Shown piece after piece: positions 90-58,278 of a DNA stretch of 64,000 bases; the first letter of the stretch is position 1; the number at the start of each line of letters is the position of its first letter. The notes beneath the pieces were generated by a model that ran no database searches, was not told the DNA's origin, and saw only the letters and a program-made list of their open reading frames with translations. The stretch is from the NCBI GenBank assembly GCA_023078555.1, contig CM041199.1, forward strand, positions 3,344,513 through 3,408,512. The letters are read 5' to 3'. Position numbers and translations under genes: made by a program. Source of the stretch: Ulva prolifera. Its lineage: Eukaryota; Chlorophyta; Ulvophyceae; Ulvales; Ulvaceae.

Positions 90-153
90 CTGTCACCACG
101 TTCACGCTGTACAGCAGTGCTGCAGCTGCGATGGGCATAAGCAATGGCTGCAT
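90..153 (-). CDS. Gene A0, signal-peptide exon only (rest off left edge)
   Basis: First coding exon of a CBM1-PAN family gene whose other exons would lie left of the window. It starts at ATG (151-153), encodes MQPLLMPIAAAALLYSVNVV plus T, and ends with G before a GT donor at 88-89, so the next exon is entered in phase 1 exactly as in the complete genes. The exon is nearly identical to that of gene A1, 6.16 kb to the right. An in-frame upstream ATG (six residues earlier) could also be used; the shorter start is chosen because it matches the other family members. A TATA-like box lies about 260 bp upstream. Identity rests on similarity to the intact paralogues; the rest of the gene cannot be seen. 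Confidence 0.65.
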
Positions 154-404
154 GGCTTGCTGTACTGGCATCCTTACCTGCACGTGGTACATTGAGTCAA
201 CCCGTGCGCTTGGTTTGTGGGTCCTAGATTGCATGCAGGTGCCCCGAGCCTGGAGGGATATGCAGCAAGGCGGTGGCCATGGCCGTGGCCCTGAATACGC
301 GAACTCCTTACCTTTGACGTATTCTCCTGGACCTCGTCTTCGTCCACCAGTGTTGGTGTCAACGTGCAAGCGCGGAGTACCGTCGATGGTGTGATCTCAT
401 GCGG

Positions 405-420
405 TACTGCCATATACAGC
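405..420 (-). promoter_or_regulatory. TATA-like box of gene A0
   Basis: Minus-strand TATATG-type sequence (plus strand catata at 411-416), about 260 bp upstream of the A0 start codon. The plus-strand flank gagtaccgtcgatggtgtga (at about 374-393) recurs at the same place in A1 and, partly, in A8 and in the U repeats. Confidence 0.4.
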
Positions 421-2473: not shown

Positions 2474-2720
2474 GTACAGGCAGGCCTCGATGCCTGTGCC
2501 CCCGCGGGACTTCATGATCAGCAAGGAGGCCATCGCGGTAGTTGCGCGTGCCGGGGCCGTGGGGATTGAGCAGCGTGACGCCGCAAAGCGCCGGCTCCGA
2601 GGGAGTCTATTGCAAAGCCGATGCAGCCACCGTGGCAGGCGCGATTCGACCGAGGAGGCCTGCGTCGATGGCGGCCGTGATGGTGTCATCCGCGGGGCTG
2701 CCAAAACCAGCGACCTCGAG
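2474..2720 (-). pseudogene. Decayed B-type terminal exon (first copy)
   Basis: Minus-strand sequence matches the last exon of B genes: the ending IEACL, the NYRSDLL-like region, and the RLHRLCD/GGCIGF region are visible but in shifted frames. The normal stop TAG is changed to TAC, indels break the frame, and the 5' part with the CDPATREV start and the TGCAG acceptor is missing. No matching exons 1-4 lie upstream; the next exons to the right belong to gene A1. It is the remnant of a dead B gene. Confidence 0.7.
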
Positions 2721-3952: not shown

Positions 3953-6315
3953 CTACGTGCACTCCTCGATGTTGTAGACCTTCGGGTTGACGCCCTCAAA
4001 GTCGACAGTGAACCGGCCTGGGGGGTACAGCAGTGTGACCTTTGTGTTTTCGCGGCCGGGGGGAGGCGCCTCAATGGCAAAGCCGATGCAGCGGCCGGGG
4101 TCGCCGTTGTTGAGGCGGCAGGCGTTGATGCCGGCCGTGATTGCGTACTCCGGCGCTGCGAGGAAGAAGCTGCTGGCCTCAAAGTTGCGATCCTGCTGGT
4201 GGGGGCCGCCGTCTGCCGCCATGATGGAGTTCACCTGGCGCACCTCCCGAGTCGCCGGGTCACACACTGCATGCTGGCACGCCCTGTCAGCGAATTTGAA
4301 GGCATGGGACCAGCAGTCGGCTGTGCACATGCCTCCCCGAGGCGCACACGGCACGCTGACATGCACATGCATATGCGACATATGACGCCGCGGTGACAGT
4401 AGACTGTGCGCGAGAAAGGTGTGGCTGGGATGCCTTTCATGCGGAACAGTTCTGCTCTCAGGCCGGAGGTGCTGGGACTGATACACCAAACCATTGGCAG
4501 ATTCACATTGCAGCGTTTGAGAACGACCACAAAGGTCGGATCGCAATGCAAGTGGAGTTGTTCAACATTCTTAGAAGTCTGGAGGTGCACGACAATCGCG
4601 GAGTAGTAGCATCAGGAGGTGTCAGGTCGCATGAGCGGAGGCTCAAGCGGCACAACGCTGATGTCTTCCTTCTTACCTATTGTGTGCATATTGATGTGGG
4701 TATAGGCAAGTAAAGTAAATCTAAATTTACTGAGCCGTATCCTGAACAGGACATTGTCAACTCCAAATTAACAGGACCACGTGTGCCGTGTACAGAGAGG
4801 ATCGCACTACTCCTGGCGACATGTGTTTTGGGCATGCCTCCCCAAAACACATGTCAGAGCTCTGCATGAGGCGATGATGGCGCAGACATGCTCCGGTGGA
4901 GATGGGGGGCGGCAGGGGGGAGGGGCGCACATGGCTCGGGGAGGAAGCACTTTGTGAGAAACACCTCCGCATCAAAGAACGGCTGCAGGTTTCCCTCAGT
5001 GGTGAACAGGTTCTTGCCAAACAGGGTACAGCTGCACAGACACCGGTTTTATGCTCATGGGAATAGTGTGAACAGGGCTGTACTCACATGCACCCATGTC
5101 TGACATCCAGGAGCCCTGAAGCTGAAGAGGGCAGGGCCGCACTCGCCGTCGACTGACTCATTGAACACAAAGCAGTCATCGTTGGTCTGGCATGCTCCGA
5201 GGCAGTTGGTGTCCAGTTGGTAATCGAGTTCATCAGCGTAGAAAAATTCGAGTTCAATTCCTCTATTTATATTAGACGCTGTGAAAGTCCTGGCAGCTGA
5301 CAGCCCACCAAGTCGCAGGTTGATCACTGTTGGATCACACTCCGATGGCTCTGCATGTCGTTGCAGACCCATCAGAAATAATGTATCGCGCAAAGCCATA
5401 GCTAAAGGCTCCATAGCGAGCGTGAATGGCCAGGGAGAGGTCGCAGTGGGACTGTCCAGTATCATTTGGCGTCAGCAGTGGCGCACAATGAGCTGCATAC
5501 AACTTGGTCAAGTATGGTCAAAAAAAGTGTAGCACACAGAGCTCCCTGTTCTACCTTTACTTTGAGCCCTGTGGCGCGTGTCACGGCACATATTACTGTA
5601 TGTCTTACTGTATCTCTAGGCAGGACTGTGCACCAACATTGAGGGCAGCACATAGCTGTTGTCCTCGACAATACGATTGACAAGCAAGCATGGATTTTCG
5701 TGGGCAAAGCTTACACAAAACGAATAATTCAAGATGACAAAGCTTTCATCGTTCGATTCAGACCTGTACAAGTGAGGATGGCTCCGCTGGGCCACGACGC
5801 AGGGACATCCTGAGATTTGGGCCGACATTGGCTGAAGGAGGACGTTTTCTCGACACATTGGTCGCCTTCGCTGCAGCAAGGCCTTATCGTTCCAGATGCA
5901 ATCCCTTCGCCTGCGCACTTCTTCCACCTCTCGACGCACTGCCCATTGCAGGTCAAGCCTTGACCTGCACATATGTGGACGTTGAGGTAAACGTATGCAA
6001 GCAAGGTGTCAATGTTCGCATCAGCATGATTGATAGCCAGTCGCGTGCGCGTATTCGATGAAAATGGGCAATTGTGCGCTCGTCCGCTCAGTCGAGATAC
6101 TAGGCATCTAAAATGTGCACCGCTGCCTTAGTGGCAAACTCTGCAACGCGACGTTTTTGCATTCATGTTCGTAGCAGCATGGCTTTTACTCCAGCCAACC
6201 TGACCGCGGCTACGCTTCTACGCACACATCGCGGTTGTAAAGGACGAGCACCTGTCACCACGTTCACGCTGTACAGCAGTGCTGCAGCTGCGATGGGCAT
6301 AAGCAATGGCTGCAT
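3953..6315 (-). CDS. Gene A1: secreted CBM1-PAN-PAN protein, 295 aa
   Basis: Five exons: 6252-6315, 5764-5964, 5143-5350, 4931-5031, 3953-4266 (888 nt, in frame, stop at 3953-3955). Residues 1-21 form a hydrophobic signal peptide starting MQPLLMPIAAAALL. Residues 23-88 are a CBM1-like module: W35, WKKCAGEG, C51-C52, C58, then FSQC at 65-68. Residues 90-191 form a PAN/Apple-like domain (CDP start, CLGACQTNDDCF, then DC-TLFGKNLF) divided by an intron. Residues 193-295 form a second one, starting CDPATREV and containing INACRLNN and RCIGF. All 18 mature cysteines are paired in number by module (8, 6, 4). Junction phases are 1, 1, 2, 1. Acceptors are TGCAG; donors are of GTGCG, GTGCT or GTCTG type. 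CBM1 and PAN modules suggest secreted glycan or cellulose binding; ligand unknown. The splice model is inferred from eight agreeing paralogues. Confidence 0.85.
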
Positions 6316-6588: not shown

Positions 6589-6589
6589 C

Positions 6590-8007: not shown

Positions 8008-8061
8008 GTACAGGCAGGCCTCGATGCTGTACCCCTGCGGGACCTCAGCAAGGAGGTTCTC

Positions 8062-8159
<98 letters not shown>

Positions 8160-8330
8160 AGTTGCTGGTGCGGGGGCCGCGCGGGTACAGAAGTGTTGAC
8201 GACGCCAAACGCCGGCTCTATCGCAAAGCCGATGCGGCGCCCGAGGCAGGCGCGGTCCCCGAGGCGGCCCGCATTGATGGCGGCAGTGAGGCTGTCGATA
8301 GACAGTCGCGGGGCTGACTGATAGCGCATT
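8008..8330 (-). pseudogene. Decayed B-type terminal exon with TC microsatellite
   Basis: Second dead B terminal exon. The 3' end (IEACL, with TAG changed to TAC as in the copy at 2474) and the RACLGRRIGFAIEPAF and LTAAINAGRLG regions are recognisable on the minus strand. The frame is interrupted by a TC microsatellite at about 8062-8156. The 5' end and acceptor are lost. It sits at the same place relative to the spacer as the first copy, so both derive from one dead exon duplicated with the spacer. Confidence 0.75.
8062..8156. repeat. (TC)n microsatellite
   Basis: About 95 bp of uninterrupted TC dinucleotides inside the dead exon. It creates a spurious arginine-glutamate repeat frame on the minus strand. 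Confidence 0.97.
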
Positions 8331-9232: not shown

Positions 9233-11613
9233 CTAGGGGCAGGCCTCGATGCTGTACACCTGCGGGTTGACGCCCTCGAAGTCGACAGTCAGCGGGCCCC
9301 GGGGGTACAGCAGCGTGACGGTGGTGTCCGTGCGGCCGGGGGGAGGCGCCTCGATCGCGAAGCCGATGCAGCGGCCCGGGAAGCCGTCGTTGAGGCGGCA
9401 GGCGTTGATGCCGGCGGTGATGGCGTACGAGGCATCCGTGAGGAAGAAGTTGGTGGACTCAAAGTCGCGGAACTGCTGGTGGGGGCCGCCGTCGGCGGCT
9501 TCGATGGAGTTCACCCGGCGCACCTCCCGAGTCGCCGGGTCACACACTGCATGCTGCTACGCCCTGTCAGCGAATTTGAAGGCATGGGACCAGCCATCGA
9601 TTGTGCATATGCCTCCGCGAGGCGCACACGGCACACTGACATGCACATGCATCACATGCCGCCGCGATGACAGTAGACTGTGTGCGAGAAAGCTGTGGCT
9701 GTGAATGGGGAACAGTTCCGCTCTCATGCGGGAGGCCTCGGGCTGATACACCAATCCATTGGCGGGTTCACCGTGCGGGTTTTGACCTCAAAGATCGGAT
9801 CACAAAGCAGATGCAGTCGCTCAGAATCTGCAGCAGTGTGGAGGTGCACGAGAATCATGGGAGAAGTGGTAGCATCAGGCGATGTCAGGTCGCACGAGCA
9901 CAGGCTCGAGCGGCACAACAGCGATATCTTCCGTCTTACTTCTTCTGTGCATATAGATGTGTGTCATGTAAAGTAAACTAAAAGAATTTAGTGAGCCGTA
10001 TCCTGATGAGGAAATTGACACCTCCAAATCAATGGGACCACGTGTGCCGTGTACAGGGAGGTTCGCACCACTCTTGGCACCGGCGTGCCTCCCCATAACA
10101 CATGTCAGAGCTCTGCAGGAGGCAATTCTGGCGCAGACATGCTCCCGTGGAGACGGGGGGCGGCAGGGGGGAGGGGCGCACATGGCTCGGGGAGGAAGCA
10201 CTTGGTGAGGAACACCTCCGCATCGAAGAACGGCTGCAGGTCTCCCGCCCTGGTGAACAGGTTCTTGCCAAACAGAGTACAGCTGCACGCACACCGGGGC
10301 TGTTATGCTTATGGGCATAGCGTGAACGGGGCTGTGCTCACATGCATCCATGATACGTGATGTCTGACATCCAGGAGGCCTGAAGCAGGAAAGGGCAGGG
10401 CCGCACTCGCCGTCGACTGACTCATTGAACACAAAGCAGTCCTCGTTTGCCTGGCATGCTCCGAGGCAGTTGGTATCTAATTGGTAATCAAGTTGGTCAG
10501 CGTAGAAGAAGTCCAGTTCAATGTCGTCATTATCCGCATTCCTGCCAGCTGACAGTCCACCAAGTCGCAGATTGATGACTGTTGGATCACACGCCGGGGG
10601 CTCTGCAGGTCAGTGCGGATAATTTGAATAGTGCAGTGTGCCTTGCCATGGCTAATGGCCTCCATAGCAAGCGTGAATGGCCGTTGAGGGCGCGCATTGT
10701 GATTGTACAGTACCGGACATGGAACAGCCAGCAGCAGCAGTGGCAGGTCATGACCGTGCATGAGATTCGACCGTGCACAGTTGGGACAGGTCTGGTCACA
10801 AAGATGTACCTGTGACCCCGCTACCTAGACTCCTACGACTCCTATGCTATTCATCTTATAATCTGTGCATACGTGTGCTGAAAACAAATTTGCTAGAATT
10901 GGGCGCACATGCCTAGGGCATTACACAGCTGCTGTTATACAGCTGCTGTCCCCGACAATGCCCAGAGTGCAATGAGACACTGATGATGATATTATGCGGG
11001 CGCAGCCTAAAAGCATTGTGAGGATGTCATGATGTGGACGCCTCCTGCGTTCGAAAATCACCCATGCAAGTGAGGACCGCTCCACTGGGCCACGATGCAG
11101 GGATCCTCTGACTTTTGGGTCGACACTGGCTGAATGAGGAGGTTTTCTCGACACACTGGTCATCCTCACTGCAGCAAGGCCTGATTGTTCCAGAGGCAAG
11201 TCCTTCGCCAGCGCACTTTTGCCACCTCCCGACGCATTGGCCATTGCAAGTCAAGTCCTGACCTACACATATGCAGGCGTTGATGCAGAAGAATATATGG
11301 AGGGCGGCAAAAGTTTCTTACATATATCGCTGCAAATGGAAAACTGTGCGCCAGTTTGCGCTGCCGAGAAAATTGGTCACAAGCGTGTACATCGCTGCTT
11401 TCGTCGCTGGAAATTGCTCAACGCGAGATATCGTGCCTCCAGAACAATCTCATGCATCTAAAAGTATGTTTATGTCAGCCTGTGTTCACTCAACAGATTG
11501 GCCGCGGCTATGGAGCCACGCACACAGCGCGATTGCGGAGCAGCAGCACCTATCACCACCTTCAACCTGAACAGCAGTGCTGCAGCTGCGATGGACACAA
11601 AAAGTTGCCGCAT
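9233..11613 (-). CDS. Gene A2: secreted CBM1-PAN-PAN protein, 291 aa
   Basis: Exons 11550-11613, 11062-11262, 10407-10602, 10182-10282, 9233-9546 (876 nt, in frame, stop 9233-9235). Residues 1-21 are the signal peptide (MRQLFVSIAAAALLFRL start, with a less usual charged end). Residues 23-88 are the CBM1-like module (W35, WQKCAGEG, FSQC). Residues 90-187 are PAN-like domain 1, split between two exons. Residues 189-291 are PAN-like domain 2 of the A type, ending IEACP. Compared with A1, exon 3 is four codons shorter and the following intron carries a 10-bp insertion near 10350 that does not touch the coding frame. The exon 2 donor is G-GTGATT. A dead B terminal exon lies 0.9 kb beyond its 3' end. 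Confidence 0.85.
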
Positions 11614-11874
11614 GACTAGCTGCACTGGCCTCTACCTACATATGGTCTGGTACATTGAAAAATTCCATGCGCTGGCTGTGCAGTGCCTGGAATACACACG
11701 AGTGGCAAGGGAGAAGATGCGGCAGAGGCTGTGACCATAGCCGTGGTGCCGTAGAATCTTTACCTTGACCGGATTTTGATGTGGACCTCACGTGTTTTCT
11801 CAAGTGCAATTTGCAAGCGCGGCCGATTGTTCGAGCACAGTCAATTGTGTGATCGCATGCGGCCGATGTACTCC

Positions 11875-11884
11875 CACATATAGC
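11875..11884 (-). promoter_or_regulatory. TATA-like box of gene A2
   Basis: Plus-strand cacatatagc, about 265 bp upstream of the A2 ATG, followed by the cctgaaag flank seen in A0 and A1. Confidence 0.4.
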
Positions 11885-13690
11885 GACCTGAAAGTGAAAT
11901 CGATGTCATCTTTGCAAAATGCTTTAGGGCTCGCATCACGAACCTTTGTTTCAGGCGTGCGAGTTGCTTTACTGTTCGCGCGCGACCGATGCGCAGTTCG
12001 TTCGATTGGGCGGCAGGTGGTCCTTGTGTGCACTTTGCCGTAAGCTACTGGTCCATAGCATGTGCTACAATTTAGCATGTATTCCACTCTTCTGCTCTGT
12101 CTTGATAATTTACGGGCGTCGCTCACGAGCGCCCAGGCCATGTCATGCGCATCGTGCCACCGTAATTCTGCTTGCAGAGCATATGCATGCTCCATAACAT
12201 ATGTGTAGGGGTGCAATCGCGTGGCCCGCCTAATTCGCTGCTGGGCTGACCTGTGCTCGCTGTGCGCAAGCAGAAGTGGGCGGAGCTGGGTGGGGGTTTC
12301 ACTTGCAATTGACCACATCCGGCGAGGAAATTGGACACAGATTCCACAGCCTTGGCCGCGGAGCATGGTTCACTGGACAATTGATGCATCTCCAGCTGTT
12401 TATGCCCACAGCTTGCCATCGAGGATCACGGGGACCTGGAACTCCAGTCATGCAAGCACGTATACAAGGTGGAAGGATCCCACCACTGCCAGCACTGTCA
12501 AAATCTGAGATGGGAGTACCTTGAGTATGGTCTTTGCACAGGTGTTGTGGTCTACGGGCTTCAATATCTCATGAGCAGGAGAGCAATTTGAAGCTTCCAT
12601 GACGCACCGGCCTGGTGGCTGGTGCTCGTGCCATGGATGCTTCGTGAGGCTGTCCTCCAGAATGCTGATGGCTTGCGAGCGTAGCAAGCCAGGTCCAGAC
12701 GCCTTGATAGTATGCATACTCGCAGGTCCTCTTGATGTTTGCACCAGCGCAGTCAGTGCAGGCCTTGCAGTACTGAGCAAGTGGTGGTGTGGTGGTGTGA
12801 CGCCTGCGGTACATTCCTGCTCTGGGTGTTTGGTCTTCAGCCGAGAATCACAGGAACACCAGCACCACTCCGCAAAAGTGCGGGAATCAGCGTGATTGCA
12901 GCAGTGTAGTTTCCCTGGCATCTAACATGCCACCACGAGGTGACTACAATCGCCTGCAGATGTCCTGTGATGTGCTTCGTCAGACCAAGGCAGTACACGT
13001 TGCATCCATGATCCAGACAAACACAGTATGTCAGTAAGGCTGTGGTGTCATGGCTGTTTCAATTGCCGCTCGGGGTACTGCTGATGTGACAGTGAGTCAT
13101 GGCACAAGCTTCACGGGCAGATGCCACATCTACACTGACATGTGACAGGATTTCGTGAGGAACACATTGAAATGCTGCTCCCGCATTGCCAACACCCGTT
13201 TACAACATCCTATCGAGAACTCATCTTTGCTTCTGTGTATCCATTCTGCCAGAAGATGCTTAGACTTGCACCAGACTCAGCAAGACCATACATGTACATA
13301 GAGCATCCTTTCATCGGCAGATCCAACACAAACTGTACTAAAAGCATGCAACTCGAGGCGAATTCACCTGCCCACAATACTTTCCAGCTTGACATCTGTC
13401 TTCCGCAACGCCCCAATTGTAACCCGCCTGCCCGGCAAGCATACACGTGCACACACTCACTGACATAACATTTGGCAGTACCAGCGAATCAAACAGGGAC
13501 CGCTATATTTGCCAGGTCACTTGGATCACCAGAACACTGCTCTCCTACCATACCAAACAAAAACTGTCGCCTCACCTTGCTCAAGCATCATGTACGATTC
13601 CTCAACACCCGTACCGCCCACTACATCTATGTCAGACACACCTGCGACTACACCGCATAACGCAGATGAATTCACTGCGTAGGAGCAGCG
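11885..13690. other. Spacer between A2 and B3 (no gene seen)
   Basis: Contains landmarks of the shared spacer (cgctgctgggctgacctgtgctcg at about 12237; catgagcaggagagcaa at about 12570, also at about 18198). From about 13030 to 13690 I see no similarity to the rest of the window and no supported frame. Confidence 0.5.
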
Positions 13691-16094
13691 CTACAGGCAG
13701 GCCTCAATGCTGTACACCTGCGGGAGCTCGTCGAGGAGGTCGCTGCGGTAGTTGCGCGTGCCGGGGCCGCGGGGGTACAGCAGCGTGACGCGTTCGGACG
13801 CCGCGTCAATCGCAAACCCGATGCAGCCGCCGAGGCGGTCGCGGTTCAGGCGGCACGCGTTGATCGCGGCCGTGAGGGTGTAGTCCGCGGGGGTGACGGA
13901 GAAGGAGCTGAAGTCGCTGTTCGCGTCCATCTGGTGGAACAGGCCGTCGGTGGCGGTGAGGGGGTTCACCAGCCGCACCTCCCGCGTCGCTGGGTCGCAC
14001 ACTGCACGGCAGCACACACACCGATCAGTGGCCTCTCGCCAGAAGAACATGAACCATGTGGCCGGATGGCGGATTTTACGAGGGTGTGTGTTGGCCCGTG
14101 GACAGGTGGCATTGTGAGGCCTTGCTTGGATCTACTGCTGCTGATCGCTCGCGGTCGGAGGGGTCAGTCACGTGGAAGCAGAGGAGCTGGTGCATGACCC
14201 GCGGCAAGCGAGTGTGGCCTCAGGTGATGGCGCCCCAGGTGGTGTGCATGCGATCTATGCATGCACTCATGTTGACGTAGTCATTCGTGCCACAGACAGC
14301 GGAAACAAGCGCAGCATGACACTGATCTGGTGCGGTGCGGGCGTCGCAGTGGTCGAACGCAACAGCAGAGTTTATTCCTGTGGTCAGTTTCACGGATGGC
14401 AAGGGCACAAAGCCCTAGCAAATGGAGACAGCATGAAAGAATGGCAGTACACAGTGGCGCAAGGTCGAGAAGAAGGGGCGTACGTGGCTCCGGGAGGAAG
14501 CACTTGGTGAGGAAGATCTCCGAATCGAAGAACGGCTGCAGGTCGCCGGCGGTGGTGAAGAGGTTCTTCCTGAACAGAGTGCAGCTGCACGGACACCGGG
14601 ACTGTTGGGGCCGTGCCGGTGATCACATCCACGGCCGCAATGGTGTCGGTCATAGAGCCCAGACACACAAATGAATAACAGATGAGCAACTCATCATGCC
14701 TATGTTCCAGGTCTGATCATAATGACAGGGATGAGTGAATGTGGAGGAGGTAGGGAGCTCTGGCACACACTGTATGCTGTCGGGCAGCGTCCGGATGCTG
14801 AAGGCAATTGTTGGATGTTCTGGGCGACAGGGCAGGAATATTGAGAAAGAATGACATGGCTGTGCTTCAGCACCACATCTGGTTCAGCGGCCAACCGCTG
14901 CAGCATGTTGCCGGATCAGTCACTGGATCCGGTGATGATGCAGAGCAGCGTTCGTAGCTGCGCACGCAGAGGGAGCGAGAGTCAAATGTGTGGGACTTAA
15001 GAAACCCTGTCGGAGGAGTAGTCAAAGGGGCAGGTACTGGCAATCACTGGTGCAGAGGGAGGGGCAGCTCACTCAAGGTCGACTGACTCGTTCATGGCAA
15101 AGCAGTCCTCGTTGTCTAGGCACTCCTGCAGGCAGGTGGTGCCTGCGAAGTCGAGCTCATCTGCGAAGATGAATGCCAGCAAGATGCGGCCGTTAGTTGC
15201 AAACCTGCCGGCTGACAGGCCGCTGAGCCGGGCGACGATTGTCGTCGGGTCACACGCTGGGGGATCTGCATAGCGGTGCAGTGAGATGTGATGGCCGTGC
15301 TGCGAAAGAGGTCATGACCGTGTGCTAGAACGTCACTTTTGAACACTACAGCGAATCATAGTGGACAGCGGCGGATCGCAATTTGGGACTGTGCAGTTGT
15401 GTGCATGTGTGTGATCACCCTTGCACTGCTTGGCGCCCTGAGTCTGCTGCTTGCTTAAGTCCTACCGCAGTATGCTCAAAGTCACGAAGCATGTACCTTT
15501 ACGAAATTCCCATGACCACCAGACATGCGGCCCAGTGTCTACATGCTTGTCGCTGTCCAGGACATACCGGTGCAGCTGAGGATGTCTCCGCTGGGCCAAG
15601 ATGCAGGGACGTCCTGAGATACTGGCCGACACTGGCTGAATGCGGTAGTTTTCTGCACGCAATGGTCATCTTCGCTGCAGCAAGGCCGCATCGTTCCTGA
15701 TGCGATCCCTTCGCCAGCACATTTCTTCCAGGTTGCTACGCACGAGCCGCTGCAGACCAAGTCTTGACCTACAGTTTAACAGATTGAGGGACATGTTGTG
15801 CGACACTGCGGCGGTACCGTATAAACGCAACTGAACAGCGTCACGCTGACGTGCTGATATGGACAATATTCCTTACGTTCGGCCGGGCGAGAACAGATGT
15901 ATGTGGTAGGTCCCCATTGAATGCAGCAAATGCCCTGATCGGTTGTGGGAGACTTGCCGTACACCCTTGATCACTTTGCATGTGTGGCATCAACATGTCG
16001 CATCGATGGTATTCATTCCTGTCTCGAGAGAAGCACCTGTCACCACGGTCAAAGTCAACACAGCTGCAGCGGCAAACACCGAGACAGCCTGCAT
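13691..16094 (-). CDS. Gene B3: secreted CBM1-PAN-PAN protein, 287 aa
   Basis: Exons 16037-16094, 15568-15768, 15073-15265, 14484-14584, 13691-14001 (864 nt, in frame, stop 13691-13693). Signal peptide 1-19 (MQAVSVFAAAAVLTLTV). CBM1-like 21-86 with WKKCAGEG and AFSQC. PAN-like 1 at 88-184: CLQECLDNEDCF joined to DC-TLFRKNLF, where Arg replaces the family Gly. PAN-like 2 of B type 186-287, with LTAAINACRLNRDRLGGCIG and the ending IEACL. Here the exon 3 donor is GTGAGC and the exon 2 donor GTATGT, both closer to the usual GT-R-AGT consensus, which supports the same junctions in paralogues that use GTGCG. The terminal exon is the shortest of the B type. Confidence 0.84.
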
Positions 16095-16370
16095 GTTGTA
16101 GCTTGATGCCTTCAACCTGCACGCAGCAAGGAGTACACCCTCTGCCTGTGAAGTGCTGGAGGGATCTCATGTTTGAGCAGCGCAGGCACTGTCAGCTTGC
16201 CAGGTAGCCGATGACGGACTGCACCTTGATACCTTCAGACTCTGTGTAAATGGGGACAGCTTGACGTAGATGTTGATGATGTGTGAGCTCGGGTTTATGC
16301 AGTACTTGACAATCTCACGCACGTCTGTCCTGATGTTTTCAATTGATGGACTTACTGTGCGTTTCCGCGA

Positions 16371-17595: not shown

Positions 17596-17909
17596 CTACG
17601 GGCAGTCCTCGATGTTGTACACCTTCGGGTTGACGCCGTTGTAGTCGATGGTGAGCGGCCCGCGGGGGTACAACAGCGTGACTGTGGTGTCCGTGCGGCC
17701 GGGGTGAGGCGGCTCAACCACAAAACCGATGCAGCGGCCGGGGCGGCCGTCGTTGAGGCGGCAGGCGTTGATGCCGGCGGTGATGGCGTTCGAGGCATCC
17801 GTGAGGAAGAAGTTGGCGGCGTCAAAGTCGAAGAACTGCTGGTGGGGCCCGCCGTCGGCGGGTTCGATGGAGTTCACCTGGCGCACCTCCCGCGTCGCCG
17901 GGTCACACA
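17596..17909 (-). pseudogene. Orphan A-type terminal exon (A4)
   Basis: Intact A-type terminal exon: TGCAG acceptor, TG-TGT-GAC start in the family phase, 103 codons open, ending IEDCP and TAG at 17596-17598. It encodes CDPATREV, INACRLND, RCIGF and TLLYPRG as in A1, A2 and A8. But no A-type exons 1-4 follow on its right: after about 150 bp of A-type intron the sequence passes into the spacer that normally lies upstream of a promoter. It is either the remnant of a gene whose first four exons were deleted, or an alternative last exon for B5, whose exon 4 (20288-20388) has the matching phase. The open frame and splice site argue that loss is recent or that it is still used. Confidence 0.7.
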
Positions 17910-19527: not shown

Positions 19528-21927
19528 CTACAGGCAGGCCTCGATGCTGTACACCTGGGGGGTCTCATCGAGGAGGTCGCTGCGGTAGCGCTTGGTCTGG
19601 GGCCCGGCGTTGTACAGAAGAGTCACCTTGTTGCCACGCGTGTCGGTGGCGGGCTCGACCGCAAAGCCGATGCAGCCGCCGCGACGCGCGCGCTGCAGTC
19701 GGCACGCGTTGATGGCCGCCGTGAGGGTGTAGTTCAGGGGCGTGACGTAGAAGAGGCGGGTGTCTTTGTACGTGTCCATCTGGTGAAAGCCGCCGTCCGG
19801 CGCCATGATGGGGTTGATTTGGCGGACCTCCCGAGTCGCCGGGTCACACACTGCATGCCAGCATGAATCTTACAAGAGTCTGTGCCTTCTCACAAAAGCA
19901 GTTGAGGGGTGAAGCACGGGTACGGGGCACGTGCGTCACTGTAGCCGCAGCCGCTGTTGGATGCGATTGGTTGACACGGAAACGTCGGCGCAACGATATA
20001 GATGGCCGAGTTGGCATCATCTGGGAGCAGGGGAACAAGGCGACGGCGGCTGCCGACGGATTGCGAGCGGTAATGCTGAGTTGCGGCGCCTACAACATGC
20101 ATGAGCGAAGGTGCACAGGTGGCCAAGTGGACGAGTCAAACCCAGGACCGCTGCGCCGCTTCTCAACAAGGCAGTAAGAAGCATGCGCATGGCAGGGAAA
20201 GGTAGCACGCAGCGCAAGCCTGAGTCGGCACAGACTCCATCTTAATGGAAGCAGCAAGAGTTGGGGGGGGAGGGGGGGGAGGCGCACAGGGCTCAGGGAG
20301 GAAGCACTTGGTGAGGACGATCTCCGAATCGAAGAACGGGCTGAGTTTGGCGGCGGTGGTGAAGAGGTTCTTGCCGAACAGAGTGCAGCTGCATGGGCAC
20401 CGGGGCTGTTGATTACGGGGACGAACGCGCATACCGACAGACAGGCAGGCGTCGGCATGCAGCACCGTGATGCACATGCAACACCGTCACATGCAGCACC
20501 ATGATGCACATGCACAGCATGCGTTCAGGTGATGATGTTCACACTCCAGCTATGTACCAGCCGACCGCTGAAGCAAGTGCTGGAAGAGCCGGCGTGCACA
20601 GCAGCTGCTGAGGCGATTGCCTGCGCGGCAATGGTCACGACCTGGGAATCTGATGTCCATGTCATGCCCGACATCGAGGTCGTGTCCGATATGCTTACAC
20701 GTAGCGACCGCGAGTCATCCCCTGCCCTTGTCAGCAACTCGTGTGCACATGGCTGTGGACATGGCCAAGCAGTTCTCCACGTGGAGACAAGCTCACAAAA
20801 GACCTACATCTGAGGCTGTTCACAGGAGGGAACTGGGGGGGTGGCGCACTCTCCATCGACTGTTTCGTCAAATGCAAAGCACTCTTCGTTAGCCTGGCAC
20901 TCTTGCATGCAGGTGGTGTCCTTGATGGACAACTCTTCGATGTGGAACTGCTCCAGCTCGATGGCTTCGTTGTCTGCGAATCTCCAGGCAGAGAGCTCAA
21001 CGAAACGGGCGGCGATGGCTGTCGGATCACATGCCGGGGGATCTGCAGACCAGTGCAATACAGTCGTCCATTTTTGTCAGGGCTGATTGACTGCTTGTGA
21101 CTGCTGTATTCCTGGGTTACTGCAGATGGTTCACAACGACCGTGTCAGGACTGTAGAAGAGCGTTTGGGTGTTCATCGTGATTCCAGCAGAGGTTCGCAA
21201 GGGCGTGGATGAAAATGCAGAAGGCCAGTCGTGAGGTCAGCGCTGCTGCTCTTTCGTCGCCAAGATGACAACAACACAAATTTCTCATAGCATGAACCAA
21301 TCTCAGTCACAAATCTATCACATGAGCAGTTTGTTTGCTGCTTGATGGCGCAGCTCGGTTCAGGTGTAGTCGGTCACTGTCCGGGACGAACCTGTGCAAG
21401 ACAAGATGTCTCCGCTTGGCCAAGACGAAGGGATGACACCGGACTTGGGGCGGCACTGACTGAACTTGGAAGTTTTTTCCACACAGTGATCGTTGTCACT
21501 ACAGCAAGGCCGCATCGTGCCAGTGGCGATTCCTTCGCCAGCGCATTTCTTCCAGGTCCCGACGCATGAACCAGTGCAGACCAAGTCTTGACCTGCACAT
21601 CAATGCAAATTGAGAGATACTTGTCGCGACGGTCGCGTTCGCGAGGTGTCACGCCTGTTAATCCGTGAGACAGTCACTGGCGATGATACAGCTAGCAGCA
21701 TTGCAGATGAACCGTGACACAAGGGCGGTTGCATCTAGCCAAGAATGAACATGGAGAAACATAGCGAATACATACTTCTACGTGTAGCTGATGTGCACGC
21801 CAGAGTTTCACATGAGACGCTGCAGCACCGCGATGCATCGCGATGCACACAATGTGAGAAGCACACCTGTCACCACCTTCACACATAGCAGCACTGCTGC
21901 AGCGGAGAGTACAGAGAGGAATTGCAT
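19528..21927 (-). CDS. Gene B5: secreted CBM1-PAN-PAN protein, 292 aa
   Basis: Exons 21867-21927, 21392-21592, 20850-21042, 20288-20388, 19528-19850 (879 nt, in frame, stop 19528-19530). Signal peptide 1-20 (MQFLSVLSAAAVLLCVKV). CBM1-like 22-87 (VCTGSCVGTWKKCAGEG, KFSQC). PAN-like 1 at 89-185 with a divergent first half (FVELSAWRFADNEAIELEQF) but the usual CMQECQANEECF. PAN-like 2 at 187-292, ending IEACL. Splicing instead to orphan exon A4, 1.6 kb further on, would also keep the frame and give 289 residues ending IEDCP. Confidence 0.84.
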
Positions 21928-23525: not shown

Positions 23526-26079
23526 CTACAGGCAGGCCTCGATGCTGTACACCTCCGGCTTCTTGGCGAGGAGGTCACTGCGGTAGTTGCGCGTGCCGCG
23601 GCTCCGGTTGTACAGCAGCGTCACGACGTCGCCGTACTCCGGTTCGCCGGCCTCGATCGCGAAGCCGATGCAGCCGCCGAGGAGGTCGCGAGTGAGGCGG
23701 CACGCGTTGATGGCGGCCGTGAGGGTGTAGCTCTGCGGCGTGACGTAGAAGTCGCGCTCGTCGCTGTCGGCGGCCATCTGGTGGAAGCCGCTCGGGTTGT
23801 TCGGCGTGATCAGGGGGTTGACCTTCCGCACCTCGCGGGTTGCAGGATCGCACACTGCACACCGGGACACTCTCAGCCTCTCAGTGGAGTGCAGTGGGGT
23901 GTTGGCACAGACAGGATCGATGCAATGAACTCCTGGTTGGAAGTGCTGCTGCCTCAAAGGATCCGAGCCTTGTTCAGCGGCACATGTGGCATGAAGGCTT
24001 AAAACGGCAAGGCGTGGGGGCAGCAGAATCTGCTTAGTAGCACGTTACGGCAGTTCACAAAAGCTCACCGCTGCTGAGCAGCGTGTGGGGCTTGTCATTG
24101 TACAGATGGCTGCCAAAGGGGGCCAGGGGGGCGCACAGGGTTCCGGGAGGAAGCATCTGGTCAGGAAGATCTCCGAATCGAAGAAGGGCTGCAGTGTGGC
24201 GGCGGTCGAGAAGAGGTTCTTGCCGAACAGAGTGCAGCTGCATGGGCACGGGGGGCGTTACAACAAGCATGCTGGTGAATGCGCGGGGGCAGACAGCAGC
24301 GACGACTCGCCAAGCACGACCGCACGAATTTCACTTCCCAGTTTGAGGCCTGTCAGTGCACGCGAGGTTGCAGCCTCACACTGCGAGAAAGTGGTCTAAT
24401 GTGGGCAGGGAGCATGCATCGCCACAGAGCTGGTCACTGCTAGTGAGATATCGGGGCATGGCAAGCAGGGCAAGCGCACACCACACCCTGTGCACCCATT
24501 TCCCAGGTGACTCCTGATGAGGCACCACATGCCAGTGTCGGTGTACATGGTCATGCATGCACAGACGCCAGCCGTGCCACTACAGCAGAAGCTCTATGGC
24601 TATTTCTGGGAGCAGTGCTTCAGCAGGACCAAAGTGCTGCATGCAAAAGCACGATCAGAGCTGGAACGCACTCCGCATCGGCCGTGATGTCGAAGGCAAA
24701 GCACTCCGGATTCTCCTGGCACTTCTCCAGGCAGCCGGCCTCGCCGTCGATGTAGTCTCCATAGAAGAAGTCGAGCTCTATGGGCGCGTTGTCGACCTGC
24801 AGGTTGGCTGACAGGCCGCCCAGGCGGGCCGAGAAGGCTGCCGGGTCACACTCCGGGGGCTCTGCACGCAGCTTCCATTGGGCATTGCATGTAGTTACAA
24901 AGGACAGAGGCCGGGCACGAGGCATGCATGTACGTATGCTGACAATGCTTCAATTGATGACTGCTGGCTCTGCTCTGGTGTTGCAGTACACCGCCGTGAG
25001 CTCACCCGACCTGGTCGCACACGAGGATGGATGATCGATGCTTCACTCCATGGGTCCACAGTGAGAATGGCGATAGCACGATGTGGGGGGAGGCGGCTGC
25101 TCTCCACCGCTGCGGTGCGGAGCATTGTATGGTGAGTGATGACCAGAGCTGCGCCGCTTCATTGAGCAAAGGGCATGGCCGGGAAACATGTACATGTCGC
25201 TGCTTTGCGCCGATGCTGCGAGTGCGAACATCGCTCAGTCAGTTTCAATCACTCGCCGATTCTGGTTGCCTTCCAGATGTGATTTAGTAGAGATGTACTG
25301 GAGTGGCATGGCAGTCACCACGGCGTGCATGGCTGGACATGGCATCTCGAGAGGCTCATTATCGCGGGAACAGGTGAAGACGCTGGAGAACAATGCCGGG
25401 GTGAGTGCCCAGAACAATGCTGATCATCATTCGCATCAGTGCAGTACGGCAGTTGACACGGCACACTGAGTGCATCTGTGACCGAGCTGGACATGTTCTG
25501 GTGCATATGTCCAACGTGACAGATTGCAGGGGCTCTCACCTGTGCAAGTGAGGATGGCTCCGCTCCAGGATGCAGGGATGTCCCGAGCCTTGGGCCGGCA
25601 CTGGCTAAACCCGGAAGATTTCTCGACACAATGGTCATCATCATTGCAGCACGGCCGCAGCGTCCCAGCGGCGATGCCTTCGCCCGCGCACTTTTTCCAG
25701 CGCTTCACGCACGACCCAGTGCAGACCAGGTCTTCACCTGCACAGCGAAAGCAAGCTGATGAAACAGTGAACCAGCGAATGCAAAAGCACTTCGGCACCG
25801 AACGCGGTCTCTACCCACAATCTAAAGACAGTCAGCGATACAACCAGCGCAAGAGAAGTTGAACGCGATGCCTTGACACAAGAACGCTGCACCGCCGAGT
25901 CAATACAGACCTCGACACATGCCGACAGGTCAATCGCTTTGTTCAACTGCACGTCATGGTAGCAGTCATACATCGCAACCGTGGTCAGGCAAAGCATGGT
26001 ACTCTGTTGGAGATGCACCTGTCACCACGTTTGAGATTAGAACCACTGCAGCAGCAGTGAGGATGAAAAAGGTCTTCAT
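23526..26079 (-). CDS. Gene B6: secreted CBM1-PAN-PAN protein, 292 aa
   Basis: Exons 26019-26079, 25540-25737, 24672-24861, 24137-24237, 23526-23854 (879 nt, in frame, stop 23526-23528). Signal peptide 1-20 (MKTFFILTAAAVVLISNV). CBM1-like 22-86, one codon shorter than in the A genes (PASWSG for PASWPSG), with WKKCAGEG and GFSQC. PAN-like 1 at 88-183 (CLEKCQENPECF, then CTLFGKNLF). PAN-like 2 at 185-292, the longest of the set, with an acidic EAGEPEYGD insert after RGGCIGF-type sequence and ending IEACL. The exon 2 donor is GTGAGA. Gene, spacer and promoter are most similar to B7, so the pair arose by a recent duplication. Confidence 0.85.
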
Positions 26080-50829: not shown

Positions 50830-53018
50830 CTACGGGCAGGCCTCGATGCTGTACACCTGGGGGTTGACGCCGTTGTAGTCGCGCGTGCGCGGCCCCGCCG
50901 GGTACAGCAGCGTGACACGCGGCTGGCTCCTGCCCGGGATATCCTCGACCGCAAAGCCGATGCAGCGGCCGGGGCGGCCGTCGTTGAGGCGGCAGGCGTT
51001 GATGCCGGCGGTGATGGCGTACCCTGGTATCGAGACGGAGAAGTGGTCTTTCTCGTAGTCGCCGTCCATCTGGTGGGGCCCGCCGTCCGCGGCGATGGTG
51101 GAGTGCACCTGCCGCACCTCGGGCGTCGCTGGGTCGCACACTGCAAGTGATCCTGCTCCCTTCGATAGAGGTCGATGGGAATTCGCACAGGAGAGAGGCG
51201 TGGCCGCACATGGCTGTTGTGCAGACATTGCGTAGATGGTTTCCGCATGCATGCCCTGAGGACCCGGACTGTTGCGTAGTTTCGTTGGCAGGTAAAATTT
51301 GCAGATATGCACTGCCGCTGTCGAAGGTAGAGTGCCATGCAAGTGGAGACGTCCAACACGGGAGGGGTCGGGCGGAGGAATACACAAGTGGCAGGACAGG
51401 TGGCATCCGACAAGGGCAAAGGCTCAGTGCCGCCCATGAGAAACCAATGTCCAGGAGGAGGAGTTCGGAGGACATATTACTCCCGGACGCCCACGGAGGG
51501 AATGTCAGAGCAGCACGCAAAGATAGCGCAGGCGTGTCCCATTACAGATGGCAGAGACAGGATGGGGGTTGCGGGTTTTCGAAGCAAACAAATGGACTGG
51601 AGAGGATGATCGAGTAGCGCACGTGGCTCAGGAAGGTAGCACTTTGTAAAGATGATTTCAGAGTCGAAGAACGGCTGAAGGTCGCCGGCGGTCGTGAAAA
51701 GATTCTTGCCGAACAAAGTACAGCTGCATGGACACCGGGGCTGTTGAGATCAGATGCACACGTGGAACCGTGAACGCAGACATGTTCATACATGCCCAGT
51801 TCTCCAGGGTCAAATGTCTGTGTTAGTTCGGAGGCGAAGCAGCCAGCGCAGTGGGGCCGCACTCATTGTCGGCAGCTTCATTGAAAGCAAAGCAGTCCTC
51901 GTGGTCCTGGCAAGCCTCGAGGCAGGTGGTGGACTGATAATCGAGTTCATCCAGGTAGAAGAAGCCAAGTTGAATGCCGCCGTTGCTCGCGAACCTGCCA
52001 GCTGACAGGCCAGGAATCCTGCCATTGATAGCCGTCGGATCGCAGCCCTCTGGCTCTGCATGTCAGCTGGGACCAGTCAATTGTGCCTAGCGACAGGTAC
52101 TCGCCTCTGTAGCAGGCATGACTGGCCAGTGAGAGGGCACTGTGGAGATGGGCAGCATCAGCACTTGCACGAATGTGCGATTCAGCACCGGATCTGGCTT
52201 TAGTGACAGGTCCCGTCGCAGATGATGACTGCTGCCCTGCTACCTTCATCTCTGTGGCGCATGCCTCGACGCATACCGGCCCTGTGCACACCTGTGCCCG
52301 GCCTGTGCATAGCTGTGCTTACAGCAGGACTGGACACCCATGCCGAGAGCAATGCATAGCTGCTGTCTCTGACACTGGCTGGAGTGAACTAAATCGCTAC
52401 TCAAGGGAGCACGAGGGCATCTCATAAGAGAATTCTAGGCAAGCTCAATGCGACAGCCTTCATTGTTCGAAATCACCTGTGCAAGTGAGGATGGCTCCGC
52501 TGGGCCACGATGCAGGGACGTCCTTAGATTTGGGTCGACACTGGCTGTACGAGGCCGTTTTCTCGACGCATTGATCGCCCGCACTACAGCAAGGTCTCAT
52601 CGTCTCGGGGGCAATCCCTTCGCCAGCGCATTTCTTCCAGGTCCCGACGCACGCACCGTTGCAAGTCAAGCCTTGACCTACACATGTGTGGATGTTAAGG
52701 CAGAACAGAGAAATGGCAGCTTTCTCATCACATTACAGGTGGACGGCGGTGTGTATGTGCGTGTTCACTGCAGATGCACGGCAGTGCGCTCGTTCGCGCT
52801 GCCGAGACATTCCGTGACAAGCAAGTTCGTCGCTTCCTCGTGGCTCACTACATCATACGCGATATCACGTTGCCTGAATTAAGCACTGCTCACGGCAGAA
52901 CATGTTTTTCCCAGACAATGTGACCGCGGCAACGCCGTAGCAAAGCGTCCACACCTGTCACCACTTGCAAGCTGAACAGCAGTGCCGCAGCTGCGATGGA
53001 GACACAACATGGCTGCAT
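50830..53018 (-). CDS. Gene A8: secreted CBM1-PAN-PAN protein, 289 aa
   Basis: Exons 52955-53018, 52477-52677, 51863-52055, 51623-51723, 50830-51140 (870 nt, in frame, stop 50830-50832). Signal peptide 1-21 (MQPCCVSIAAAALLFSLQV). CBM1-like 23-88 with WKKCAGEG and SYSQC: the only family member with Tyr at the aromatic position of the final motif, as in classical CBM1. PAN-like 1 at 90-186 (CLEACQDHEDCF; TTAGDLQPFFDSEIIFTKC). PAN-like 2 of A type at 188-289, with GYAITAGINACRLND, RCIGF, and the ending IEACP. It differs from other A genes in PDE-level details such as SIPGYAI and the short VEDIPGRSQPRV loop. It is separated from the left array by about 18 kb of repeats. Its promoter region is shared with the U and R2 repeats. 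Confidence 0.85.
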
Positions 53019-54770: not shown

Positions 54771-55873
54771 GGTGCAGTGCGTGTCAGAACCAGCATGAAA
54801 CGAGGTGAAAACAAATAATGCATGACAAAAAATTTACATGACGTTGCGAGATACTGATCCGTCCAGCCCTGCTCTACCCAACCATCTTTGTTTGGTCAAG
54901 CCACAACACACACAGCACACGGCCACACCCTCCCACTACGTGCATGTGCAAGGCACCATCCTTCTAGCACATGCTCCACAACTCCGCCTACAGCGGTGCC
55001 ACAACACCATGGTGCTTGCCAGGGCAGCGACCTCGACAACCCAGCCACTGAGCTGCGATATCTGTGCTGTGGCACGCCCCTCTGCAACTGCTGTGTGCTG
55101 CATACTGTGCCGCCCAGCTGCAGCACCATACCTCATCGTCCACCTGGTTGTAGTCACAAGCAGCAGCCCTACACTAATCAATTGGAGTTCCAGCCTCAGG
55201 ACCCAAGTGGGGGCCGCTCGGAAGCAACATGAATCGCTGCCGCCAACGTCATCCAGCCAGCCATGAGGCCCTGGTTCATCTCACCTTGGTCCTCAATCTG
55301 CCACCACAATGCGTCCGACCGGCAACACCATCCCCCTGCCCACCAACACCCCGGGCACCCGGGCTCAGATCGCCGAGCGCGTTTGTGCCACACTGCGATC
55401 GGCCCCACAGCAGCACAGCTTCAGCATCACTGCATGGGCAGTGCCCCAGCATCATCGCACAGGGCGCGCCCCAGCTAGTGCACAGCCTCGGGGAAACACA
55501 AGGGCGAACAGCCTACGCAAGAGGCACCGTGACCACCACACAACGTGCGCCCCAGCAGCATCGCTGCCTCGGCAGTGCCACAGCAACAGAACCGCCGCGC
55601 CGAAAGGCTGCAACCCCCCTTCACCAGTGCACAGACCTAGAGCATCGCTGCATGGGCGCTGCCCCGGCGTCGCCATCAAAGCAGAGTCACCTCGGCAACG
55701 CCACGGCATCATCACACAGCACACGCCCCAGCAGTGCCGCAGCATCATCGCCGCGCCCAAATGCTGCAGCCCCCTCCACCTCAGCGTCATACTTTCTTGG
55801 GTCCGCCCCCTCGCGAGCAACCCCCCCCCCCCCCCCCCGGCCGCAAGCGCGCCCCCTTCACCAGTGCACAGAC
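54771..55873. other. CA-rich spacer left of B9 (no gene seen)
   Basis: Loose repeats of gcatcatcgca, cagtgccacagca and accagtgcacagacct in 55350-55870, with a C run at about 55829-55844. Long proline/alanine/histidine-rich open frames on the plus strand come from this low complexity and from the reverse of the B9 last exon. Confidence 0.5.
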
Positions 55874-58278
55874 CTACAGGCAGCCCTCGATGCTGTACAC
55901 CTGGGGGTTGTCCGCGAGGTCGCCGCGGAAGCTGCGAGTGCCTGGGCCCTCGTTATACAGCAGCGTCACCTTGTTGCCGTCGCTGCCCGTCGCCGGCTCG
56001 ATCGCAAAGCCGATGCAGCCGCCGAGGCGGTCGCGGTTCAGGCGGCACGCGTTGATGCCGGCGGGGAGGGTGTAGTCCGCGGGGGTGACGAAGAAGAAGG
56101 CGATGTCGTCGTCGGCGGGCCTCTGGTGGAAGCTGCTCGGGTTGTTGGGCGCGATGATCGGGTTGACCTGGCGCACCTCCCGCGTCGCTGGGTCGCACAC
56201 TGCACGGTGGAAGGCTCATCAGCATTCTTACATCAGCACGTATCTGCAGGAACATGGTGCAGAGAGAGGCTGGCCAACACGCTCTCAGGGGCATGGTGCG
56301 CCAGTATTCGTTTGTTGTTACTTGGCCGGCTGTGCACATGTTTCTCCATGTCCATGTGGTGCAATTATGCGTCGTGACGCTATCTCACTTGCTGTCTCTG
56401 TCTAAGCTGCTGATGCGGTCGTGGCGCGTCCCCGCCACTGCGTGTGCCGGTGCATACCGAAAGATTCTCCTCTGGCTGTCATCGACAGCACCCAGGATGC
56501 CCAAACTGCACAGCACAGGGCGCACGGCAGACACAGGATCATGCCGGACATGCATGCTGAGCCGTGAGTAAGGTTGTCTCAGCTTGAGTGTCTCAGCTGC
56601 AGGTAGGGGGGGGGCGCACGGGGGGGAGCGAGGAAGCACTTGGTGAGGAAAATCTCAGCGTCGAAGAACGGCTGCAGCTTGGCGGCGGGCGAGAAGAGGT
56701 TCTTGCCGAACAGTGTGCAGCTGCATGGGCACCGGGGGCCGTTACTTCAAGCATGCTGGTGATACTGCACGAGGGCAAGGCGCGATGGAGGACCGCCCAG
56801 GCCGAGGATGGCATCCGAGACGCGACGATACGGAACGCCTCAGAAACATCGGCAACTATTGAAATTTGCTTGTAGGACTACAGTCTATGCAGGTGGTGTC
56901 GTTCCTTGCGCAGCATTGACCAGACAGTGACTAGAAGGCCGCATCATGCAATACTGCGAGGCTGGCAACAGCGACCAGGCTTGGTGCTTGAACAACAGCA
57001 TGCAGACATGGCTGCACAGCGCCACTGCCCATCACTAACTTGAACTGATGACAGCGACAGCGAAAACGACACGGAGAGGCGGATCGCAGCACGAGCACCG
57101 CACAATAACACCGAAAAACCAAATCACATCAATGGCACACCAGAATCTGGCCACCACGAAGCATGCCATTGAATAGCGCGCTTCCACCTGCCTCTGTTCA
57201 TGGTTTAGCTCCGTCACATCAGGTACAAAGGCTCTGCCTGCTGTGGCGAGATACTCTCCATCACAGCAGACAGCACGTCTGGAGAGCGCCATCTCTCAGA
57301 CGCAGGCAGCTACTAACGCGCACGCCAATCCGGGGGCGTATGTGTACGCCGGTGGGCGAGTTAACAGTTGACTGGGGCGTTCAGGGCGCACTCTCCGTCT
57401 ACAGTCTCATCGAATGCAAAGCACTCAGCATTCTCCTGGCACTCCCTCAGGCAGCCATCAGCTTCGAGGTAGTCTCCGAAGATGAAGTCAAGCTCGATGG
57501 GCCCGTTCTCCACTAGCAGGTTGGCTGACAGGCCGCCGAGACGGGCTGAGATGGCTGTGGGGTCACACTCTGGGGGGTCTGCACACAGCTTACAGGCAGG
57601 CAGGTGAGATCTGCTGACCGAGAAGCCACGTACGAATGCAAGTCACTGGTGCTGCTGCAATGTCGCCCTTCGAAAGCCTTTGGGGCATGTGAACTTGCTA
57701 GCTGGTCAGGGCACACCTGTGCAAGTCAGGATGGTTCCGGTCCAGGACGCAGGGATGTCCCGAGACCTTGGCCGGCACTGGCTGAACTTGGATGACTTCT
57801 CTACGCATTGGTCGTCAGGATTGCAGCAAGGCCGCAGTGTGCCAGGGACTATGCCTTCGCCGGCGCACTTGCCCCAGCGTTCGACGCAGGCACCAGCGCA
57901 GACCAGGTCCTGACCTACACAACAGGACACAAGTCAACGTGGCAGCCTCCACGGCAGAGAATGATATACATATGTGTACATATGTGTTCAACTGAGCTTT
58001 CTGTGCACAAGATAAGCAGCGATACATGCTGTCGTCTGGATTCGAAACGCGGTGCACTGTGACGCTGCGTGACTGTTGCCACAAGGTATTGCACTCATGC
58101 AAACCGGCGCTTTGGATCGAAACATGGAGACTGCATAGCAGCCAGCGAAGTTTCGGGCATACAGACGACCTAGCACCAGGCAGGCCCGGCCACTCATCCG
58201 AAGCTCGAAGGAAGCACCTGTCACCACATTAAAGCACAGAAGCACTGCCGCAGCGGCGATTGAGGAGAAAGTCTTCAT
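55874..58278 (-). CDS. Gene B9: secreted CBM1-PAN-PAN protein, 290 aa
   Basis: Exons 58218-58278, 57717-57914, 57392-57578, 56620-56720, 55874-56199 (873 nt, in frame, stop 55874-55876). Signal peptide 1-20 (MKTFSSIAAAAVLLCFNV). CBM1-like 22-86 with VERWGKCAGEG and KFSQC. PAN-like 1 at 88-182, with the shortest exon 3 of the set (CLRECQENAECF). Exon 4 ends CFLAPP instead of CFLPEP. PAN-like 2 at 184-290, with TLPAGINACRLN and GGCIGF, ending IEGCL. It is the gene closest to the ABCC transporter and the first of the array from that side. B9, B6 and B7 are the most similar CBM1 modules. Confidence 0.85.

Follow-up and report, generated by a model that had tools for sequence, protein, structure and literature searches.

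A tandem array of genes for predicted secreted CBM1-PAN-PAN proteins, candidate wall lectins, in the green seaweed Ulva prolifera

This work concerns a stretch of 64,000 nucleotides of Ulva prolifera (GenBank assembly GCA_023078555.1, contig CM041199.1, positions 3,344,513 to 3,408,512; hereafter the window), the minus strand of which carries a tandem array of related genes for predicted secreted, cysteine-rich proteins. Each of these proteins joins a signal peptide to a domain that, judged by profile comparison, is a divergent CBM1, followed by two domains of the PAN/Apple type (PANa and PANb). The gene structures, the homology of the first domain to CBM1 and of PANa to PAN domains, a PAN-like model of PANb and mainly purifying selection were all obtained by computation. 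In our interpretation, to which we attach a probability of about 0.55, the array would encode secreted wall-anchored lectins, i.e., a non-enzymatic, disulfide-rich tandem family whose CBM1 knot would sit on cellulose and whose PAN domains would hold a second wall ligand.

Eight intact five-exon genes (g1-g8, 287-295 amino acids, intron phases 1, 1, 2, 1) were found in the window, as an initial annotation made from the sequence had proposed. Their models were built outward from exon matches; all eight splice at GT...AG sites, with acceptors reading GTGCAG, ATGCAG or GTGTAG in most cases, and each yields one open frame without internal stops (Table 1). The splice junctions of the array genes agree with aligned gene models of Ulva mutabilis. 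In all eight proteins, signal peptide, CBM1-like domain, PANa and PANb follow one another without a linker, and the annotated pattern of 8+6+4 cysteines over the three domains was recovered, with a total of 18 cysteines in g1, g2, g3 and g5 and additional ones in the signal peptide (g4, g7, g8) or in PANa (g6). The copy that had been annotated at the left edge is indeed the first exon of a gene, a7, complete at C4:3342324-3344665 (C4 being the contig that carries the window, in whose positions array coordinates beyond the window are given). Exon profiles applied to the neighbouring DNA extended the whole array to about 108 kb (C4:3294645 to C4:3402790), with 15 genes having GT-AG models and one gene of a second type, i.e., about 16. 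Seven further first-type genes lie left of the window. Six of them were spliced by script, and in the remaining one, a4, the first exon and the acceptor were assigned by eye; frame, GT-AG sites and cysteine framework are thus kept in 15 of the 16 array copies (14 script-spliced, a4 partly by eye). The second-type gene is a mosaic, with an array-like signal peptide and CBM-like exon and with PAN exons that resemble (66-81% identical) the six-cysteine type of L044. The latter is a single dispersed relative, a gene of 314 amino acids at C4:4744184-4747080, with five exons and phases as in the array.

The N-terminal cysteine-rich domain is, on the evidence of profile comparison, a divergent CBM1. 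The Pfam check proposed with the initial annotation did not return it directly: in a set of 16 proteins, eight of them from the window, with matches counted at E up to 1, CBM_1 (PF00734) matched none of the eight window proteins and does not figure among the families matched by any of the 16. A CBM_1 search at the curated cut-off through the genome (88.9 Mb assembly, 44 contigs) gave nine matches, none within the window, and a domain-only protein search returned nothing but its query. L044 scored 11.6 bits with CBM_1 (cut-off 20.6), and among ten dispersed domains scanned, five matched below this cut-off (best 20.3 bits) and five gave no match. Nine CBM1 domains encoded in this genome made up the reference profile: eight had passed the Pfam cut-off, and one more was recognised by eye in an open frame that also holds one of the eight. 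Against this profile, hhalign gave a probability of 96.5 for the array copies, 97.5 for the dispersed copies and 97.4 for both (E 9e-10 to 3e-11), when the best of 60 column shuffles with fixed cysteines reached 5%. In line with this, a search with the L044 protein reached a stretch at C3:5.246 Mb that Pfam recognises as CBM_1 (E 1.6e-5).

The core of the domain reads W-x2-C-x-G...CC-x5-C...(F/Y)-S-QC. In fungal CBM1, the cellulose face is formed by Y5, Y31 and Y32, according to the part of the source at hand (PMC4577117). Of these three aromatic positions, two are kept and one is lost in the array: the W5-equivalent and F/Y32, together with Q34, are present in all 14 array copies that were matched, whereas these 14 copies carry K, N, S, A or G at position 31 and never an aromatic residue (F, W or Y). 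Reading by eye indicated that a4 and the second-type gene also keep positions 5, 32 and Q34, with K (a4) or H (second-type gene) at position 31. An aromatic residue at position 31 was found in seven of the eight matched CBM1 domains of the genome, the exception being the domain added by eye. Readings of position 5 were used for array copies only, and not for the dispersed L046, L047, L053b and L056. As a separate observation, about 30 dispersed places in the genome carry the CBM1-like domain, several of them on C7:1.99-2.44 Mb (L046, L047 and L051-L059 included); among 13 such loci read, several stand on proline-rich linkers, and L054, L055, L057 and L059 have N for the W5-equivalent.

The two PAN-like domains of the initial annotation were likewise recovered, through different lines of evidence. 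PANa has, in alignments, six cysteines in what we take to be the PAN order. At E up to 1, nine of the 16 proteins had a match to PAN_1 and nine to PAN_3 (best E 0.0016), and the four window proteins with bit scores stayed below both cut-offs (best 16.9 against 21.4), when PANa of the paralogue L044 passed that of PAN_2 (25.2 against 21.1 bits). Searched through the genome, PAN_1 matched once and PAN_4 four times, in no case within the array. Taken with the paralogue, the alignments argue that PANa is homologous to PAN domains. As regards PANb, none of the four proteins with reported match positions had a Pfam PAN match in this domain, nor was any obtained for the L044 domain alone. Four cysteines are found in PANb of the eight Ulva mutabilis models and of all 15 first-type copies of the array; the second and fifth cysteines that they lack are present in L044 and in the second-type array gene, which have six. 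By this comparison, PANb has lost one cysteine pair that two relatives keep. A structure model of PANb (last exon of g3) reached a predicted local distance difference test (pLDDT) score of 89.8. Foldseek placed fragments of HGF (N domain) in all of its top 23 rows, with a probability of up to 1.00 and a best E of 0.003, and VIA-align placed thyroglobulin in its first row and PAN/Apple proteins in 34 of the best 50, with Z up to 6.5, the labels being in part our own assignment (plasminogen, HGF, SML-2, factor XI, kallikrein, Eimeria, MIC4 and leech proteins). The structure-prediction check proposed earlier hence came out PAN-like, with moderate scores; the case for a PAN fold would be moderate by the fold scores alone, and is to be read with the cysteine-pair evidence. 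Profile comparison lent no support to a relationship between PANa and PANb (4% probability, with two wrong residues in the L044 row), nor between either domain and three PAN-like stretches of L045, a locus of the same genome described below (PANa 9%, PANb 0.3%). A full-length structure prediction (Ulva mutabilis P0001, eight sequences) gave a pLDDT of 40 and was discarded.

Selection on the array was mainly purifying, with no clear diversification. The ratio of nonsynonymous to synonymous substitution rates (dN/dS) was determined for 91 pairs of 14 genes, all those of the array except a4 and the second-type gene. For whole genes, its median was 0.33, and it did not exceed 0.52 in any of the 91 pairs. 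The medians by domain were 0.17 for the CBM (89 of 91 pairs), 0.22 for PANa (85 of 91), 0.65 for PANb (91 pairs, maximum 1.31) and 0.63 for the signal peptide (90 pairs, maximum 4.61 on about 20 codons). Ratios above 1 were confined to the signal peptide and to some PANb pairs, in which the synonymous rate (dS) is low. In the same 14 genes, GC content at third codon positions (GC3) climbs along the gene, from 0.63-0.66 in exons 1-3 to 0.81 in exon 4 and 0.905 in exon 5; the CBM and PANa exons have 0.64-0.66, against 0.905 in the PANb exon. This rise may possibly result from biased gene conversion. The selection for diversity suggested in the initial annotation was accordingly not supported, as the high PANb ratio accompanies this high GC3 and low dS; selection for dosage, its other suggestion, is possible. 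In three close gene pairs, 14 of 15 exons were 81-100% identical, compared with 46-82% for 12 introns, two ranges that just touch. The outlier, the 101-nucleotide exon of a2/a3 at 39% identity, is ascribed to misalignment, as the proteins match over this stretch. Low whole-gene dN/dS, together with exon sequences that for the most part are better conserved than intron sequences, indicates that the copies are retained.

The family is distinct, as had been claimed, and its genome is not an oomycete's: the near-full-length relatives are gene models of Ulva mutabilis. This alga was indeed the source of eight of the nine matches obtained from about 5.8 billion proteins, five of which cover 96-100% of the query, the best being 61% identical. 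Two of the eight models, P0007 and P0008, are incomplete, and a third, P0002, begins with a foreign N-terminus. Three short fragments (P0010-P0012) were further obtained by an alignment-based search, and a tblastn search against plasmids gave a single meaningless match. In the tree, 15 array rows and six Ulva mutabilis rows fell on either side of one branch (support 100/100). When rooted with L044, the Ulva mutabilis set lay inside the diversity of the array, with g1, g2, a7 and g7 branching earlier (99/100); the branch of L044 is very long and the rooting unsure, the a4 row is partial and the L044 row has a small join error. Because of this placement, unsure as the rooting is, the idea of two purely lineage-specific gene sets was dropped; the array may in part predate the split between the two seaweeds and have undergone loss or conversion afterwards. 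Two side observations concern single matches. In P0002 (UM039_0003), a piece of tryptophan synthase alpha replaces the signal peptide of a family member, which is probably an annotation error. A lone match to the fourth exon lies near a contig end at C10:1947159-1947251 (61% over 31 residues), and the stretch around it (L048) showed no CBM-like domain above noise.

A role as wall proteins is the likeliest, because the domain plan resembles that of CBEL, the Phytophthora parasitica protein compared below, and because the walls of Ulva contain cellulose, listed with ulvan, xyloglucan and glucuronan in the available part of a review (PMC10762512). The array protein would be secreted into the cell wall, where the CBM1-like knot would grip cellulose microfibrils or a similar glucan via its W5- and F/Y32-equivalents and Q34. 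The two PAN domains may bind a second wall glycan or glycoprotein, and the protein would then cross-link the wall or serve as an adhesin, as has been suggested for CBEL. We infer secretion, cellulose binding, the PAN ligand, cross-linking and a use of the array for dosage or in a stage-specific manner, and the word lectin is meant in the same predictive sense. As to the second ligand, PANa is acidic in 20 of 20 proteins examined and PANb mostly acidic; this strongly acidic PANa disfavours direct binding of sulfated ulvan, and a binding of ulvan comparable to that of heparin-binding PAN domains was therefore marked down.

A possible alternative, which we regard as doubtful, is that the CBM1-like knot does not bind cellulose and serves as a disulfide-rich scaffold or interaction module, in secreted recognition or defence proteins with PAN domains directed at glycans of microbes or of the alga itself. 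In its favour, both the 31-equivalent aromatic and the N29-equivalent are lost in those array copies that were read, additional cysteines surround the CBM1-like core and many tandem copies are retained. A loss of cellulose binding is, however, at odds with the other two aromatics and Q34 kept in every matched copy, as is the CBM-like exon being the most constrained part of the gene, and the few ratios above 1 are limited to the short signal peptide and to PANb pairs of low dS.

The extra last exons bear on two further explanations. Three copies of the PANb exon sit 0.9-1.6 kb 3' of the complete genes g1, g2 and g4. The initial annotation had taken them for exon remnants, which holds for two of them; the copy behind g4 (17596-17909) is intact, phase-compatible with exons 1-4 of g4 and, with a dN/dS of 0.5 versus its nearest relative, within the range of other PANb exons. 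By its sequence, it may be an alternative last exon of g4. It could hence be proposed that Ulva-type seaweeds evolved their CBEL-like wall lectin separately from oomycetes and run it as a recognition repertoire, with a fixed cellulose anchor and PAN tips varied by tandem copies and by alternatively spliced spare last exons, which we consider rather unlikely. Neutral birth and death, in which unequal crossing-over generates mostly redundant copies and the size of the array has no function, would account for the extra and decayed last exons, for related pieces on the opposite strand (C4:3222270-3233557), which allowed no gene model or contain stops, and for a second repeat array inserted at the same place. 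It is distinctly unlikely in view of the intact frame, splice sites and cysteine framework of 15 of 16 copies, the second-type gene itself retaining all five exons but, as read by eye, needing a GC donor after exon 2, and of the low whole-gene dN/dS in all pairs. Lastly, that the domain calls are wrong, and that unrelated cysteine-rich domains, for example with a phospholipase A2-like pattern, merely recall CBM1 and PAN, is very improbable: no window protein has a passing Pfam match and weak phospholipase A2 matches do occur (E 0.41, 0.57 and 0.0047 in separate scans; 0.034 at best in two of 16 proteins), but these are confined, where placed, to the cysteine-rich N-domain, and profile, paralogue and fold evidence favours CBM1 and PAN.

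Table 1. Features of the array (window positions unless preceded by C4).
Feature	Position	Strand	Exons or remarks	Length
g1	3953..6315	minus	6315-6252, 5964-5764, 5350-5143, 5031-4931, 4266-3953	295 aa
g2	9233..11613	minus	11613-11550, 11262-11062, 10602-10407, 10282-10182, 9546-9233	291 aa
g3	13691..16094	minus	16094-16037, 15768-15568, 15265-15073, 14584-14484, 14001-13691	287 aa
g4	19528..21927	minus	21927-21867, 21592-21392, 21042-20850, 20388-20288, 19850-19528	292 aa
g5	23526..26079	minus	26079-26019, 25737-25540, 24861-24672, 24237-24137, 23854-23526	292 aa
g6	29948..32510	minus	32510-32456, 32178-31981, 31284-31095, 30645-30545, 30267-29948	287 aa
g7	50830..53018	minus	53018-52955, 52677-52477, 52055-51863, 51723-51623, 51140-50830	289 aa
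g8	55874..58278	minus	58278-58218, 57914-57717, 57578-57392, 56720-56620, 56199-55874	290 aa
a7, exon 1 (signal peptide)	90..153	minus	other four exons left of the window, C4:3342324-3344328	
Second-type array gene	C4:3319100-3321735		all five exons recognisable; GC donor needed after exon 2, by eye	
Intact extra PANb exon	17596..17909	minus	1.6 kb 3' of g4; acceptor and stop present	
Decayed PANb exon pieces	8011..8293	minus	0.9 kb 3' of g2	
Decayed PANb exon piece	2520..2699	minus	1.3 kb 3' of g1	

Other sequences were observed in and around the array. The second tandem repeat family occupies window positions 27800-49700, with eight copies of a 300-nucleotide core, one between g5 and g6 and seven between g6 and g7; a further four lie at C4:1859940-1866475. 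It is perhaps non-coding, because it has many indels and no window with codon periodicity, a weak test in which control exons were also weak. A fragment of an ABC transporter ATP-binding domain (PF00005, 31.9 bits) was found in the right flank (window 60831-61664, minus strand). Elsewhere in the assembly, C9:34923-50792, 35 kb from the contig start, is a near-copy of window 9830-25697 (15.9 kb, 99.7% identical). It was left out of the gene count because 6 mismatches against 35 gap openings suggest an assembly or haplotype matter, which it probably is; otherwise, it would be a very recent duplication.

The CBEL resemblance noted in the initial annotation is partial, and stands for the joining of CBM1 to PAN. 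CBEL is described, in the text available, as a Phytophthora parasitica wall protein that binds cellulose and galactose-type sugars (galactose/N-acetylgalactosamine (GalNAc) lectin; PMC3532174). Both are non-enzymatic wall proteins (a prediction here) that join CBM1 to PAN/Apple, and in both the number of CBM1 cysteines exceeds the fungal four, with five in oomycetes and eight in the array, as far as the parts of the two sources at hand describe CBEL (PMC3532174, PMC4577117). A change of Y52 in CBEL is reported there to lower Avicel binding 15-fold, when the matching change in the second CBM1 behaves like wild type (PMC4577117). The array keeps the aromatic at position 32, which we mapped to this Y52 of the first CBM1, and has no aromatic 31-equivalent, so that it retains one residue known to matter in CBEL and lacks another. 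By contrast, CBEL has two CBM1-PAN units and a Thr/Pro linker, whereas the array has the layout CBM1-PAN-PAN without a linker, is tandemly arranged and belongs to a green alga. On these comparisons, the array proteins are CBEL-like in parts, and not CBEL. Closer at hand, the genome's own CBM1 domains (PF00734; L001-L008) share the core W-x2-C-x-G ... CC-x5-C-x8-QC and are homologous by profile, but the array domain has CxxxC before the core, an SW...L-x-C tail, eight cysteines and no Pfam match. With PAN/Apple families (PAN_1, PAN_2, PAN_3, PAN_4), the array shares the six-cysteine order of PANa, the PANb model and PANb relatives with six cysteines; it differs in that PANb lacks the second and fifth cysteines and that window proteins stay below the cut-offs where bits are given. 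The locus L045 (C3:12091001-12100000) also has a CBM1-like domain, followed by four PAN-like stretches recognised by eye, of which one passes PAN_1 (23.6 against 21.4 bits), one is below the cut-off and two have no PAN match; it differs from the array by its larger number of such stretches and its single locus.

The Ulva pertusa lectin UPL1 is likewise a lectin from an Ulva, but its precursor of 203 amino acids is described, in the part of the source available, as unlike any known plant or animal lectin; it is set beside the array by description only (PMC7024344). Within the accessible text, a 2012 survey reported the CBM1-PAN combination from oomycetes alone among eukaryotes, with diatoms and brown algae among the groups that lack it (PMC3532174), and the words 'lectin' and 'CBM' do not occur in a 2023 review of green algal matrices (PMC10762512). 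Our literature search, covering titles and the opening lines of abstracts, gave no report of such a CBM1-PAN-PAN family in Ulva, although the Ulva mutabilis genome paper may mention it. The array would thus represent a divergent CBM1-PAN form as an expanded, conserved green-seaweed family and a set of candidate wall lectins. Set beside the oomycete proteins, it suggests that organisms with cellulosic walls acquired the CBM1-PAN plan on more than one occasion, through separate origin or through spread.

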